Source: Lampropedia cohaerens (GTDB taxonomy: Bacteria; Pseudomonadota; Gammaproteobacteria; Burkholderiales; Burkholderiaceae_C). Taken from it: a stretch of 64,000 nt of DNA. A program made the translations under genes and the position numbers. Location of the stretch: positions 1 to 64,000 of the forward strand of contig NZ_LBNQ01000020.1 of the NCBI RefSeq assembly GCF_001005215.1, written 5' to 3'. Of this stretch, positions 14,782-21,804 are shown piece by piece; the first letter of the stretch is position 1; each line of letters opens with the position of its first letter. Below the pieces are notes generated by a model. The model did not search any database. It was given only the letters and a program-made list of their open reading frames with translations, and was not told the DNA's origin.

Positions 14782-15627
14782 CTATTCGTCGAGCTCGCGG
14801 CGCAGGTTGGCAATCATGTCGATGCGCTGAACGCTGCGCTCGCCCAATGTCTGGGCCACGTGCTGCACGAGCAGATGCAGCATGCTGGCAGCTGCCATCG
14901 CTGAGAACGCATGCGTGCCGCTGGCGCAGTGGCAGGGCAGCACCAGCCCTGCGACGCGGCGCGCCCAGGCCACGTTGCGCACATCCACCACCGCCACCGT
15001 TGCCATCCTGGAGGCGGCCGCGTGCGCCATCAACCGGTCTGCCATCTGCGTGCGCGGTTGGGTCTGCACGATGAGCAGGGCATCCCTGGGCGCACAGTTG
15101 GCAAGCGATTCGGCCCACTGACCGGCCCGGTCATCCAGCACGAACACGTCTGGCCGCACCCGCGCAAATTGCGGGGCGACGAACTGCACCAGACCGCGGT
15201 CAACGCCCAGCCCGAGCAACCACACGTGCGGCGCTTTTGCAAGCGTCATTGCGGCGCTGCGCAGCAGATCGCTGCGCAGCCATTCGAATGTGCGTGCAAG
15301 GCTTTCCTGCTCGCTTTGCAGGTGGCTGGAGATGGACTGCGCCAGCTGCCCGCCTGCGCCTGCGCGCGATGGCGGGCGCTGCAATGCTGGCGCGAGGTTG
15401 CGTTCCTGACGTGCCTGCAGGCGCACCTCGTTGAAATCGCTGTAACCGAGGCTGCGAAACAGTCGTGCCGCCGTGGCCTTGGACACGCCGGCCATCGCCG
15501 CCAGTTCGGACGCCGAGTAGGCCAGCAGGTCCTCCGCACGGTCGAGCAGCAGCGCCGCAAGCTTGCGCTCGCTGGGGCTGAGGTGTTCATAATGTTCCTG
15601 GATGGCCAGGGTCAGGCGCGTTGTCAT
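14782..15627 (-). CDS. MurR/RpiR-family transcriptional regulator
   Basis: A 281-residue regulator with an N-terminal RpiR helix-turn-helix (LSPSERKLAALLL, then SASELAAMAGVSKATAARLFRSLGYSDFNEVR, about residues 18-70) and a C-terminal SIS domain (VWLLGLGVDRGLVQFV, DALLIVQTQPRTQMADRL) that normally binds a phosphosugar. The typical Ser residues of the SIS sugar-phosphate loop are not obvious, so its ligand may not be a sugar. It is transcribed away from the 5-FCL-like/ABC cluster and shares a 117-base intergenic region containing a perfect palindrome, so it probably controls that cluster. The start at 15627 is preferred to upstream in-frame ATGs (15702, 15741), which lie in or beyond the palindrome region. 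Confidence 0.88.
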   Translation of the reverse strand: MTTRLTLAIQEHYEHLSPSERKLAALLLDRAEDLLAYSASELAAMAGVSKATAARLFRSLGYSDFNEVRLQARQERNLAPALQRPPSRAGAGGQLAQSISSHLQSEQESLARTFEWLRSDLLRSAAMTLAKAPHVWLLGLGVDRGLVQFVAPQFARVRPDVFVLDDRAGQWAESLANCAPRDALLIVQTQPRTQMADRLMAHAAASRMATVAVVDVRNVAWARRVAGLVLPCHCASGTHAFSAMAAASMLHLLVQHVAQTLGERSVQRIDMIANLRRELDE

Positions 15628-15715
15628 GAGTGGCGAGCATAGCCGAGCAACACGCGCTCGAGCGGCAAAAGCTGCCGCAACGAGACTGTCCCCAAGGGGC
15701 ATTGGAGGACGGATG

Positions 15716-15742
15716 TTGAAACTGCAGTTTCCGTAATACAAT
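15716..15742 (+). promoter_or_regulatory. Possible promoter of the 5-FCL-like/ABC operon
   Basis: TTGAAA (15716-15721) and TACAAT (15737-15742) are 15 bases apart, slightly short of optimal. The -35 box overlaps the palindromic site. If transcription starts near 15749, translation of the first gene would begin at 15769 rather than 15745. Confidence 0.45.
15718..15731. promoter_or_regulatory. Palindromic operator candidate for the RpiR-type regulator
   Basis: GAAACTGCAGTTTC is a perfect 14-base palindrome, of the GAAA-N6-TTTC form known for some RpiR-family sites (for example GGAA-N6-TTCC for rhizobial IolR). A further TTTCC...GGAAA pair with 14 bases between the arms spans 15728-15751, sharing one half-site. 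The position over the -35 box suits repression of the divergent operon. Confidence 0.55.
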
Positions 15743-15744
15743 TT

Positions 15745-16554
15745 ATGGAAACGATTGATTCAATTCTCATGGTGCAGAAACGACGAGTCGAGACGGAAGT
15801 GGCCGATGCCCAGCTGCGCCATGGCGTCTGGGAGGATCTGGCGGCGGTGGCGCGGCCGGATTCGCGCTTTCACCTGCGATTTACCGAGTTCATTCCCGAC
15901 TTCGCAGGCGCAGCCGATGCCGTCGAGCGGCTGGTGTGCTTGCCCGACTTTGCCCGGGCCACGCACGTGTTCCTGACGCCGGACAACAGCCTGACCGGTC
16001 TGCGCCAGCGCTGCCTGGAGGCGGGCATTAGCGTGGTCGTCTCCAGTTACGACATGGCGCGCGGATTCTTCCATTTCCCCGCAGGCAGCGTGCCACGAGA
16101 TCTGGCACGCTACGCCGCGTGGCTCGACGGGCTGGAGCACTTCGCAAAGCCGGTATCGCTGGCCGAACTGGCGGCGCTGGGGCGCTTTGACTGGGTGGTG
16201 ACAGGTGCCGCCGCAGTTGCCACCTCGGGCGTGCGGTTCGGGCGCGGTCACGGCTGGTTCGATCTGGAATGGCGCCTGTTCGGTGAACTGGGCCTGGTGG
16301 ATGCGCGCACGCCCATTGCCACACTGGTGCACGATGTTCAGGTGCTGGAGCAGCCGCTGTTTCCTGCCGAGGAGGACATTCCGGTCGACGTCATCTGCAC
16401 GCCCTCGCGCACGCTGCAGGTGCCGCGCGTGCAGTCCCGCCCCCGCCGCATCGACTGGGCACGCATCAGCCAGAGTCAGATTCAGGCCGCTCCGGCCTTG
16501 CGCGAACTGCGTCAGGCGCAGGGTCTGAGTGCCCCCCAAAACCCATCTTCCTGA
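15745..16554 (+). CDS. 5-formyltetrahydrofolate cyclo-ligase-like protein (COG0212 paralogue 1)
   Basis: A 269-residue protein with the NagB/RpiA/CoA-transferase-like fold of 5-formyltetrahydrofolate cyclo-ligase. The substrate/ATP motif is GRGHGWFDLEW (residues 166-176), the form seen in the 5-FCL-like paralogue group (MTHFSD-like: GKG-x-G-x-x-D-x-E) rather than the GGGYYDR form of true cyclo-ligases. Other landmarks are FLTPDNSL, DWVVTGAAAVATSGVRFG and VHDVQVLEQ. Published comparative genomics links this paralogue group to thiamine metabolism, with no defined reaction. It is the first gene of an operon with an ABC importer and a second paralogue (19946-20695). Translation may begin at 15769 (MVQKRRVE), which fits the promoter and the length of the second copy better. 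Confidence 0.82.
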   Translation: METIDSILMVQKRRVETEVADAQLRHGVWEDLAAVARPDSRFHLRFTEFIPDFAGAADAVERLVCLPDFARATHVFLTPDNSLTGLRQRCLEAGISVVVSSYDMARGFFHFPAGSVPRDLARYAAWLDGLEHFAKPVSLAELAALGRFDWVVTGAAAVATSGVRFGRGHGWFDLEWRLFGELGLVDARTPIATLVHDVQVLEQPLFPAEEDIPVDVICTPSRTLQVPRVQSRPRRIDWARISQSQIQAAPALRELRQAQGLSAPQNPSS

Positions 16555-19901: not shown

Positions 19902-19945
19902 CGGGACAGGCAGCCCATTTTCCCCTTTGTACTGGAGACCCCTTT

Positions 19946-20695
19946 ATGGATCACAAGAGTTCCGTGCGCGAGCGCGTGTTTGGGCAATTGCGCAAGGTTG
20001 CCTATGCCGACAGTCGCTTTCACTTCGATTTCGGCGAGTTCATTGCGGACTTTCAGGGCAGCGAGCAGGCGCTTGAGCGGCTGGTCAATCACCGCTTCTA
20101 CCAGCAGGCGCAAGTGGTGTTCATCACGCCTGACAACTGCCTGGAAATGCTGCGCTACCGTGCATTGCAGGATGGCAAGCGCATTCTGATGACGACTTAC
20201 TCCATCAAGCGCGGTTTTTGGCTGCTGGACCCCGACACCATCGCGCCTGAGCGCTGGCTGTACGCCGCCACGCTCGACGGCATGGAGCGGCATGGCCGGC
20301 CGATGACGCTGGCGCAGATTCGCGATGAGCTGCCCGGCGTGGACTACATGGTCACGGGCACCGGCGCCATCAATGAGGACGGTGTGCGCTTTGGCAAGGG
20401 CCATGGCTTCTTCGATGCCGAATGGGGCATGCTCTATCGCATCGGCAAGATCACCACCGAAACCCCGGCAGCGGCGGTGGTGCATGATTGCCAGGTGCTG
20501 GCAGAGACGCTGTACCCCGAGGTGTTCGATACCGTGGTGGATGCGATCTTCACGCCCACGCGTACGATCGAGGTGGCCGATCCGCATAAGCCGACTTGCG
20601 GTATCGTCTGGGATCTGCTGGATCCAACCATGCTGGCGACCATCCCGCCGCTGCGGGAGCTGCAGCGCATGGAGCCGCAACTGCCGCCGCTCTAG
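19946..20695 (+). CDS. 5-formyltetrahydrofolate cyclo-ligase-like protein (COG0212 paralogue 2)
   Basis: A 249-residue paralogue of the protein at 15745-16554. Shared landmarks are [39 protein letters not shown] and the motif [11 protein letters not shown] (residues 150-160), again the 5-FCL-like form. The two copies differ over most of the rest, so they are unlikely to be recent duplicates and may act as a heteromer or on different substrates. A GGAGA box lies ahead of the ATG. The gene ends the ABC operon; the deaminase gene starts 59 bases further on the same strand. Confidence 0.82.
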
Positions 20696-20754
20696 CAATT
20701 TCGCCGTCAGTCGCTAGCGCCGCGTCTTTCTCTTCTTCGTTTTTCCAATCCACC

Positions 20755-21804
20755 ATGTCCCTGCCTGACTTTGCCCGAATCCCTCGTGAGCGGCTGCCCG
20801 AGCTGCTGGCCGCCATGCCCAAGGCGGAGCTGCACATCCATATCGAAGGCTCGCTGGAGCCCGAACTGATCTTCGCACTGGCGCAGCGCAATGGCGTGGC
20901 GCTGGCCTATCCGGACGTGCAGGCCTTGCGCGACGCCTACGCGTTCACCAATCTGCAGAGCTTTCTGGACATCTACTACGCAGGTGCCTCGGTGCTGATT
21001 GAGGAGCAGGATTTCTACGATATGGCCTGGGCCTATCTGCGCAAGGCCGCCGAGGAGAACGTCCGGCGCACCGAGCTGTTCTTCGATCCGCAGACGCACA
21101 CGGCGCGCGGTGTGGCGATGGCGACGGTGATCAACGGCCTGCATCGCGCCTGCGAGGACGCGCGTGAGAAGCTGGGTGTCGACGCGGCACTGATCCTGTG
21201 CTTTCTGCGGCATCTGTCCGAGGACGCGGCGTTCGAGACCCTGGAGCAGGCCCTGCCGCTGCGCGACAAATTCATCGGCGTTGGCCTGGACTCCAGCGAG
21301 CTTGGCCATCCGCCAGAGAAGTTCGTGCGGGTATTTGCGCGCTGCCGGCAGCTGGGCTTTCGACTGGTGGCCCATGCCGGCGAGGAGGGGCCCGCGGCCT
21401 ACGTCTGGAGCGCACTGGATGCGCTGCATGTCGAGCGCATCGACCATGGCGTGCAAAGCATCCATGACGCCGATCTGATGCGACGGCTGGCGCAGGAGGG
21501 CATTCCGCTGACCGTATGTCCGCTCTCCAACCTCAAGTTGCGCGTGTTTGAGGACCTGCGCCAGCACAACCTCGGCCAGCTTCTGGAAGCAGGATTGGTT
21601 GCCACGATCAACTCCGACGATCCCGCCTATTTCGGTGGCTATCTCAACCAGAATTTCATCGAGACCTTCGATGCCACCGGCCTTGGCGCGCGCCAGGCCT
21701 GGCAGCTGGCCACCAACAGCTTCACGGGCAGTTTTGCTGATGCGCAGGCCAAGCGGCGCTGGTGTGACGAGGTCAACGCGACCTTCGCGCGTTTCGCCGC
21801 CTGA
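20755..21804 (+). CDS. Adenine-deaminase-type aminohydrolase (annotated family: adenosine deaminase)
   Basis: A 349-residue metal-dependent deaminase of the adenosine/AMP deaminase family. Metal ligands and catalytic residues are visible: HIH in [22 protein letters not shown] with the catalytic glutamate, IDHGV, and [11 protein letters not shown]. The last motif, with [11 protein letters not shown] rather than the TDDP form of true adenosine deaminases, is typical of the fungal-Aah1/bacterial adenine deaminase group. The likely reaction is adenine to hypoxanthine plus ammonia. The start at 20755 follows the family; the open frame upstream overlaps the previous gene. Its place behind the 5-FCL-like/ABC operon hints at a linked role in N-heterocycle salvage. 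Confidence 0.85.

Follow-up and report, generated by a model that had tools for sequence, protein, structure and literature searches.

An operon joining two 5-FCL-like paralogues to an NMT1-type ABC importer in proteobacteria

A compact gene set, in which two 5-FCL-like proteins (FCL1 and FCL2) and an NMT1/THI5-type ABC importer follow a divergent RpiR-family regulator, is shared by various bacteria from soil and water. Our preferred reading, which remains tentative at a probability of about 0.4, is that the importer takes up a nucleobase-like compound and that the FCLs activate its formamide group with ATP. The window, the whole 64-kb stretch of DNA analysed here, has the regulator on the minus strand and, on the plus strand, FCL1, the binding protein (SBP), the ATPase, a double permease, FCL2 and a deaminase, in that order (Table 1). 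No published description of such an operon was found in the accessible parts of the literature searched.

Table 1. Features of the operon, with positions in the window.
Feature	Position	Strand	Basis and remarks
RpiR-family regulator	14782..15627	-	HTH_6 and SIS; 281 aa; divergent
Probable RpiR operator, palindrome TGAAAC-N4-GTTTCA with one mismatch	15717..15732	.	pattern search
FCL1, 5-FCL-like	15745..16554	+	PF01812 47.8 bits; 269 aa; loop GVRFGRGHGWFD
NMT1/THI5-type SBP	16566..17537	+	PF09084 138.5, PF10518 25.9; Tat signal; motif W-[IV]-N-D-A-E-F
ABC transporter ATPase	17545..18333	+	PF00005 119.2 bits
Double ABC permease	18330..19901	+	two BPD_transp_1 stretches; 523 aa
FCL2, 5-FCL-like	19946..20695	+	PF01812 52 bits; 249 aa; 12-residue loop
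PF00962 deaminase resembling PA0148 (adenine deaminase)	20755..21804	+	349 aa; accessory, mainly in Burkholderiales-like versions

Gene order, conservation and operator

The gene calls bear out the regulator, the two FCLs, the NMT1-type importer and the deaminase as a first-pass annotation had described them, including the 59 bases between FCL2 and the deaminase. The same-strand intervals from FCL1 through the deaminase are 11, 7, -4, 44 and 59 bases; of the gaps of 7-45 bases given earlier, those of 11, 7 and 44 hold, but the permease start overlaps the ATPase end by 4 bases. The range originally assigned to the system, 15627-21804, touches the regulator at its start codon (15627) and leaves the body of that gene outside. 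Both regulator domains score above their cut-offs (HTH_6 52.6 against 28.3, SIS 27.8 against 25).

Conservation was assessed in the best 80 loci from one scan of species genomes. All six core genes, from the regulator to FCL2, are present in the same order and on the same strands in 55 of these loci, which by record title belong to alpha-, beta- and gammaproteobacteria; frames are broken in two of the 55 sets (L086 and L090, Brucella). Because six genes are co-ordered in so many loci the arrangement is not a matter of chance, and the neighbourhood, whose conservation in relatives had been named beforehand as a test, is indeed conserved. The first-pass annotation had considered two paralogues in one operon unusual, but within this system both FCLs are the rule, in those 55 of 80 loci, and versions with one FCL also exist. 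FCL2 is missing from seven loci, and its real absence is visible in four of them only; L097, L102 and L104 end 149 to 758 bases past the permease. L105 and L112 are additional cases with a single FCL. A phylum-wide search, scoring at most six candidates per genome, matched 3 of 398 genomes, the window genome included, and a PHROGs search gave no match.

The palindrome between the regulator and FCL1 is matched once in the window, with one mismatch, against 0.05 expected, and with at most one mismatch it is present in all 64 of the 64 regulator-FCL1 intervals counted (0.04 expected by shuffles), a count that leaves aside loci missing either gene, loci in the opposite orientation, and L095, where hits overlap. 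It is probably the RpiR operator. L095 has no operator, its best site showing 6 mismatches. Of the 43 carrier genomes, 25 contain the exact palindrome, with 28 sites in all; 22 of these belong to the operon, 21 as confirmed by a check and the one on G509 C57 as judged from its position. The other six (G998, G1053, G946, G509 C7, G961 C3 and G967 C6) were considered as leads to co-regulated pathway genes and rejected, since the control, the same pattern reversed, was matched 12 times in 8 genomes and six are therefore no more than chance.

Relationship of FCL1 and FCL2 to 5-FCL

FCL1 and FCL2 are 40% identical to each other, and both pass the PF01812 cut-off of 27. The NCBIfam equivalog model for 5-FCL, TIGR02727, gives them 23.8 and 22.5 bits against a cut-off of 84.9, and a PDB search with a profile of 16 FCLs found no chain at E 0.1. 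A structural model of FCL2 (pLDDT 94.5) has its top fold matches in 5-FCL, with TM-scores by target of 0.61-0.72; among the first 12 hits, nine carry titles with 5-FCL, MTHFS or a related name, and 1ydm, an entry whose title gives no function, accounts for the remaining three chains. FCL2 is thus predicted to have the 5-FCL fold. The likeness to 5-FCL (MTHFS, EC 6.3.3.2) therefore comprises family, fold (2jcb, 3hy6, 3hy4 and others) and a glycine-rich loop, R-x-G-[KR]-G-x-G, whereas the score far below the equivalog cut-off, the lack of a PDB sequence match and the operon setting separate the two proteins from it, as does an ordinary 5-FCL of 91.4 bits encoded elsewhere in the window genome. 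These differences bear on the idea of folate or pterin scavenging, in which the FCLs would be genuine 5-FCLs whose substrate is 5-formyl-THF, or fragments of it, brought in by the importer. PF01812 membership and the FCL2 fold would suit such a role, but the equivalog scores and the empty PDB search argue against it, and beside a normal 5-FCL two more copies would be redundant; we regard it as very improbable.

Paralogues of 5-FCL are widespread, and we know of no defined reaction for them; those of the COG0212/MTHFSD type were reportedly treated by Pribat et al. in 2011. FCL1 and FCL2 resemble that type in being 5-FCL-like yet not 5-FCL, and some of its members likewise adjoin importers, but the importer-linked examples are of the BMP type (L010, L112, L115, L116 and L117). 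In the FCL tree, 11 rows, BMP-linked or similar to these, form a clade with 100/99 support that probably represents the canonical COG0212 type; FCL1 and FCL2 fall outside it, and they have TPDN and GHGFFD where that clade has NPDP and GGGFAD. FCL2 forms its own clade in the FCL tree.

GKGHG is invariant across all 74 FCL2-type rows. The FCL1 loop has drifted, with R in place of K in 22 of 69 rows and T, A or V in place of the last G in 18 of 69, and FCL1 may therefore not be an enzyme. Such drift, together with a partner in L091 that has lost the loop (ISPTPSYFD instead) and a GntR-FCL fusion in L103, would be consistent with FCLs that are kinases or sensors, one of them phosphorylating the imported base to trap it, or taking part in regulation. 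We think this unlikely, given the invariant GKGHG of the FCL2-type rows and the occurrence of FCL2-type genes at loci without this importer (L064, L081 and L085).

The importer and the thiamin question

By sequence the closest solved structures to the SBP are 3ix1 and 4nmy, which bind FAMP and thiamin. A fold search also places 3ix1 first, and its first 21 hits are FAMP-, thiamin- or HMP-related; a chain of SsuA is next, with TM-scores of 0.66/0.73 against 0.70/0.74, and by E-value sulfonate proteins rank below thiamin-type ones. The SBP scores 35.4 with the SsuA model TIGR01728 (cut-off 163.5) and 19.4 with PRK11480 (cut-off 490). Neither SBP nor permease reaches the cut-off of any listed model, nor does the ATPase among its 25 matches listed; the top models for ATPase and permease, all below cut-off, are ntrCD, SaoP and SsuC. 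These last matches and the SsuA TM-scores, so close to the values for the top SBP matches, would be expected of an ordinary sulfonate- or nitrate-type importer with unrelated passenger genes, the ligand class that the first-pass annotation had said would count against its proposal. The SsuA model score and the 21 thiamin-type folds ahead of SsuA make that ligand less likely even with such close TM-scores, and passenger genes fit poorly with FCLs and importer occurring together in 55 of 80 loci, so we give this explanation very little weight. RibXY, which as described in PMC4418817 has a sulfonate/nitrate/taurine-like permease and SBP (COG0600, COG0715), is another point of likeness, and homologues are noted there under other riboswitches; the window differs in lacking an FMN riboswitch.

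The nearest structures of the SBP would suit salvage of a thiamin pyrimidine, by a ThiY-like importer for a thiamin breakdown product (FAMP or ring-opened thiamin) that the FCLs would repair or process, a role of the broad kind suggested for COG0212 proteins. PMC4120688 describes COG0212 as implicated in thiamin metabolism, and in L115 a related FCL with a BMP importer adjoins a thi operon with a TPP riboswitch. The operon described here is similar to ThiXYZ in its NMT1-type SBP, but no TPP riboswitch was found in the 64-kb window or at 8 of 9 other loci tested, the exception being the thi operon of L115, and among 105 loci only one has thi genes, which there adjoin the other FCL type. The SBP also lacks the W-x-P-N-x-x-H stretch of 3ix1 and 4nmy and has W-[IV]-N-D-A-E-F in 25 of 25 rows.

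Of 38 genomes that carry an FCL1- or FCL2-type gene, some without the whole operon, only 13 have ThiC. Neither ThiC nor any ThiE match is seen in six, namely isolate G965 and five MAGs, for which HMP alone would not suffice. ThiC is present in the window genome, however, and the rarity of ThiC, considered as a sign of thiamin salvage, was rejected as such because it follows lineage: in the family of G870 it is found in 31 of 248 genomes overall and 0 of 9 carriers, which is no difference (p 0.61; G1086, one of the nine, has the other FCL type only). In the window genome's own family the baseline is 96 of 150, and carriers have ThiC in 2 of 10 cases against 94 of 148 (p 0.014), a comparison that ignores kinship and in which the family was assigned for two of the ten. 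Thiamin salvage is, in our judgement, somewhat unlikely. The earlier suggestion that an N-heterocycle is taken up and processed by two cyclo-ligase-like proteins fares better, the conserved unit and the FCL2 and SBP folds making an N-heterocycle likely, but thiamin is not favoured by context, given the lack of a TPP riboswitch in the window and the near absence of adjacent thi genes.

Nucleobase context and a proposed role

The deaminase matches 3ou8, 3pan, 3pao and 3pbm with 415 bits and 3rys with 367, the next PDB chain having 126; it is thus closer to PA0148-type enzymes than to classical adenosine deaminases, if 3ou8, 3pan and their kin are, as we assume, PA0148/adenine deaminases. It also exceeds the cut-off of 419 for NCBIfam PRK09358.1-6, named adenosine deaminase, with 555 bits, and its nearest proteins in NCBIfam and PDB are named adenosine, not adenine. 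Compared with the PA0148 type (Goble 2011, as cited in PMC6281700), the window gene differs in being the last gene behind an importer operon. Such a deaminase, at 60% identity or more, is found in 14 of the 80 best loci and missing from 66, some of which are ended by contig ends; a PF00962 fragment lies about 4 kb upstream at the locus edge in L059, and L062 also has one. Within the genus, 2 of 10 genomes have the deaminase, the same two that carry an FCL-like gene.

Variant loci offer further hints. L095 pairs an RpiR regulator and an FCL1-type gene with a PRTase and an NCS1 permease replacing the importer, L103 has an FCL pair with an NCS1 permease, and in L065 and L092 an FCL accompanies a nucleoside hydrolase and PfkB/ADP-ribosylGH. 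The L075 version includes an amidohydrolase whose closest model is that of 5'-deoxyadenosine deaminase, at a score below cut-off, and in L148 a cousin importer without an FCL adjoins an ADA-type and a cytidine-deaminase-type gene. These neighbours lean to nucleobases, and their hint of a purine-like base is no weaker than that of vitamin B1. No Pfam or NCBIfam family was matched by the ECF-like S components of L089 and L091. Among 133 flanking ORFs from 31 loci, no thi or purine family is among the 25 commonest of 128 Pfam families; these remained from 147 ORFs of 32 loci after excluding 14 (three deaminase ORFs, all five of L079, and six for size or redundancy), ORFs above 900 aa having been excluded before selection. 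Set against the nucleobase reading are this flanking result, the SBP fold with its thiamin-type ligands, the scarcity of the deaminase and the adenosine naming of its nearest proteins, the drift of the FCL1 loop and the missing operator of L095, as well as the fact that NCS1 permeases also carry thiamin pyrimidines.

Under the nucleobase reading, the operon would be a self-contained uptake-and-salvage unit governed by its own divergent RpiR switch. The importer would carry a nucleobase-like amino-N-heterocycle, either purine-derived or an aminopyrimidine, and FCL2, perhaps with FCL1, would use ATP to activate its N-formyl (formamide) group as 5-FCL does with 5-formyl-THF; we infer this chemistry from 5-FCL by analogy of family, fold and loop. 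An adjacent amine could then close a ring, or the activated group could be removed. The last gene of the Burkholderiales-like version would deaminate the resulting adenine-type product, and the SIS domain of the regulator may sense a phosphorylated product.

A more specific form of this proposal, which we consider unlikely, makes FCL2, together with FCL1, a formamidopyrimidine cyclo-ligase. FAPy-adenine (4,6-diamino-5-formamidopyrimidine), as an example of a ring-opened purine, would be imported, its imidazole ring reclosed with ATP in a chemical analogue of the conversion of 5-formyl-THF to methenyl-THF, and the adenine deaminated. FAPy can be likened to FAMP, the ligand of the nearest solved SBP, both being aminopyrimidines with a formamide side group. 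We know of no salvage route for oxidised, ring-opened purine bases, and none was found in the accessible parts of the literature searched.

The operon ties two kinds of 5-FCL-like paralogue to one importer in three proteobacterial classes. The ligand of the SBP is directly screenable, the regulator has a predictable operator, and the identity of the ligand would supply a substrate class for orphan 5-FCL-like enzymes. Should that ligand prove to be a damaged or ring-opened base, nucleobase salvage would gain a territory so far unexplored; and if the FAPy reading is true, oxidised ring-opened purines would have a salvage route and some of the orphan 5-FCL-like proteins a reaction.

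Layout, putative operator and distribution of the operon

The first-pass annotation had placed an RpiR-type regulator divergently from a run of genes extending from FCL1 to a deaminase, and this placement is borne out, with gaps from FCL1 to the deaminase of 11, 7, −4, 44 and 59 bases in order. FCL1 and FCL2 are the two 5-formyltetrahydrofolate cyclo-ligase (5-FCL)-like proteins of the operon. We found no description of this operon in a search of the literature. The sole Rfam match above its gathering score within the window is an SAH riboswitch aptamer.

Features of the operon and other elements in the window
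Feature	Position	Strand	Remark
RpiR-type regulator	14782-15627	-	
Palindrome	15717-15732		one mismatch; expected 0.05 in window
FCL1	15745-16554	+	PF01812 passed
NMT1-type binding protein	16566-17537	+	Tat signal
ATPase	17545-18333	+	
Double permease	18330-19901	+	
FCL2	19946-20695	+	PF01812 passed
PF00962 deaminase	20755-21804	+	
SAH riboswitch aptamer	39448-39587	-	45.7 bits (gathering 37)

Relatives were collected in one scan of genome contigs using a four-row FCL alignment as query, which found 310 loci, and the best 80 were kept. When the window proteins were mapped onto these 80, the complete set of regulator, FCL1, binding protein, ATPase, permease and FCL2 was present in 55, with identical order and strands throughout; two of the 55 (L086 and L090) have broken frames. 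The set without FCL2 is seen in seven more, three of which end too soon past the permease to tell, and the remaining 18 have other arrangements, several of them truncated where the contig stops. Going by record titles, the operon is carried by, among others, Comamonadaceae MAGs, Pararobbsia, Salinicola, Rhizobium, Hoeflea, Devosia, Brucella species and Cereibacter. It is well supported that the operon is a conserved, regulated uptake unit with 5-FCL-family proteins.

The interval between the regulator and FCL1 contains the palindrome TGAAAC-N4-GTTTCA, present with at most one mismatch in every one of the 64 such intervals examined, from 63 loci plus the window, and exact in 44, where mononucleotide shuffles of the same intervals give expectations of 0.04 and 0.00 respectively. 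Across the 43 genomes with an operon-type FCL gene the exact palindrome occurs 28 times, in 25 genomes, and 22 of these occurrences are at the operon; the pattern reversed as a control gives 12 occurrences, spread over 8 genomes. We read the palindrome as a putative operator, with the local regulator probably governing the operon and little else.

FCL genes of the operon kind are uncommon in genome draws. Among 200 genomes of the family to which the window belongs, three have an FCL1 match (the window genome, G032 and, weakly, G129), as do 2 of 10 genomes of the genus (the window genome and G202, which has the more distant FCL type described below). FCL2 matches were found in 13 of 369 genomes of the class (at E 0.001, several weak); for another family the figure at E 1e-20 is 9 of 248, one being of the distant type. 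We interpret the operon as a self-contained unit, putatively moving between lineages. The Thiomonas version (L009) lacks the regulator and FCL1, and a Y2_Tnp transposase gene (10889-11581, reverse strand) adjoins the binding protein where these two genes would be expected.

The two 5-FCL-like proteins and a more distant type

FCL1 and FCL2 share 40% identity, and at 23.8 and 22.5 bits respectively both stay far below the cut-off of 84.9 set for the 5-FCL equivalog; the window genome holds a separate ordinary 5-FCL scoring 91.4 bits. A tree built from 119 FCL-like rows places the FCL2 proteins of Pseudomonadota in a single clade of 43 rows (support 100/99), which is adjoined by relatives from Shapirobacteria and Chloroflexi. 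The FCL1 rows, and the lone FCL of shorter operons, are not one clade in the midpoint-rooted drawing; since they lie outside the FCL2 clade, the pair does not stem from a recent duplication within the operon.

The GKGHG loop, to which G150, K151 and G152 of the window's FCL2 belong, is kept in all 74 FCL2-type rows. Of the 69 FCL1-type rows, 22 have R in place of the K and 18 have T, A or V in place of the last G, all of these counts including near-identical loci. A search of the PDB with a 16-row FCL sequence profile found no entry, but the FCL2 model (pLDDT 94.5) has 5-FCL structures ranking first by fold: nine of the first 12 matches are titled 5-FCL, MTHFS or related, and the other three are 1ydm chains, whose title names no function. 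The TM-scores by target are 0.61-0.72, and human MTHFS with ADP and with N5-iminium phosphate is among the matches. We infer the putative FCL reaction from family, fold and loop only.

A separate 11-row clade (100/99) contains FCLs linked to BMP-type importers and similar proteins, which we take to be the canonical COG0212 type. This more distant type stands with BMP-type importers at six loci (L010, L112, L115, L116, L117 and L136). At L115, on a Roseicitreum antarcticum plasmid, a LysR-FCL-BMP importer group adjoins a thi operon with a TPP riboswitch (thiD, thiG, thiE, tenA). At L117 (3915-11120), on an Allorhizobium pseudoryzae plasmid, FCL-like and BMP-type ABC genes lie within a cyanuric-acid cluster with AtzD, biuret hydrolase, AtzH-like and amidase genes. 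At L112 (1-12060), on a plasmid of Roseinatronobacter sp. S2, an RpiR-FCL-NMT1 importer group is back to back with a LysR-FCL-BMP importer group, each importer having its own FCL type.

The binding protein and the class of substrate

The solved structures nearest in sequence to the binding protein are 3ix1, which binds FAMP, and 4nmy. The first 21 fold matches of its model (pLDDT 87.1) are 3ix1, thiamin-bound 4nmy and Thi5 chains, with taurine, PQQ and sulfonate proteins ranking after them. This lead is clear by E-value (1.5e-20 versus 4.8e-14 for TauA) but small by TM-score (0.70/0.74 for 3ix1 versus 0.66/0.73 for an SsuA chain). Where 3ix1 has W-Y-P-N-A-V-H and 4nmy W-T-P-N-T-N-H, however, the aligned stretch of the window protein is W-I-N-D-A-E-F, a motif conserved as W-[IV]-N-D-A-E-F across all 25 binding-protein rows. 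Because the FAMP/thiamin-type fold ranks first and yet this motif replaces P-N..H, the ligand is likely an N-heterocycle that need not be a thiamin pyrimidine.

The predicted fold pulls toward a substrate of the thiamin type, but on context we prefer a nucleobase-like one. Of 38 genomes carrying a gene of the FCL1 or FCL2 type, 13 have ThiC, but its presence or absence tracks lineage, and it is found in the window genome too. The ThiE model has matches in 32 of the 38, 27 of them above the cut-off. The six genomes with neither ThiC nor a ThiE match are five MAGs and an isolate (G965), and for these HMP alone would be insufficient, unless genes were missed. No TPP riboswitch was found in the window or at eight of nine further loci, the ninth being the L115 thi operon, and thi genes resembling those of L115 are seen at only 1 of 105 loci.

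The deaminase, exchanged parts and a candidate role

Against the PDB the window deaminase scores 415 bits to 3ou8, 3pan, 3pao and 3pbm, 367 to 3rys and 126 to the next chain, the five named entries all being titled adenosine deaminase. The first four are presumably PA0148, which is reported to deaminate adenine. The deaminase gene follows FCL2 in 14 of the best 80 of 310 loci, all beta-proteobacterial by their titles except L075, and is an accessory rather than a core part of the operon. Of the 10 genomes of the genus, 2 have it, and these are the very two that possess an FCL-like gene (p 0.022), although in G202 the two genes are on different contigs.

Several loci have exchanged parts. At L095, where an RpiR regulator accompanies an FCL1-type gene, the importer is replaced by a phosphoribosyltransferase and an NCS1 nucleobase permease, and the operator palindrome is missing. 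At L103 a GntR-FCL fusion is accompanied by an FCL2-type gene and by an NCS1 permease that scores 58.9 against the HMP transporter model CytX, far below its cut-off of 309.85. The fusion (2443-3486, in an actinomycete MAG) joins a GntR helix-turn-helix to an FCL domain, raising the question as to whether this FCL is a sensor domain. In the L075 version the importer, FCL2 and the deaminase are preceded by an amidohydrolase that stands in place of the regulator and FCL1; this amidohydrolase scores best against 5'-deoxyadenosine deaminase and other models, with no cut-off reached among the 25 listed. L065 (5481-10729) and L092 (416-4938) have in common an FCL, a GntR regulator, a PfkB/ADP-ribosylglycohydrolase fusion and a nucleoside hydrolase (62.9 and 69.7% identical), and L143 also has an ADP-ribosylglycohydrolase near its FCL. 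An ECF-like CbiQ/ATPase transporter is present in L089, L091 and L096. L091, from a Chloroflexi MAG, carries a tandem FCL pair (3799-5325), one copy of which has lost the glycine-rich loop and reads ISPTPSYFD there, near an IclR/PNPOx-domain protein and the ECF-like transporter. A cousin importer on a Rhizobium plasmid (binding protein 44%, ATPase 59% and permease 43% identical to the window's) is adjoined by ADA-type, cytidine-deaminase-type and isochorismatase-type genes, with no FCL gene in that stretch.

In our boldest reading, drawn by analogy, the candidate role of the system would be the re-closing of ring-opened purines. If true, this would tie together the formamide chemistry of 5-FCL, a binding protein with a FAMP-like fold and a gene resembling adenine deaminase.
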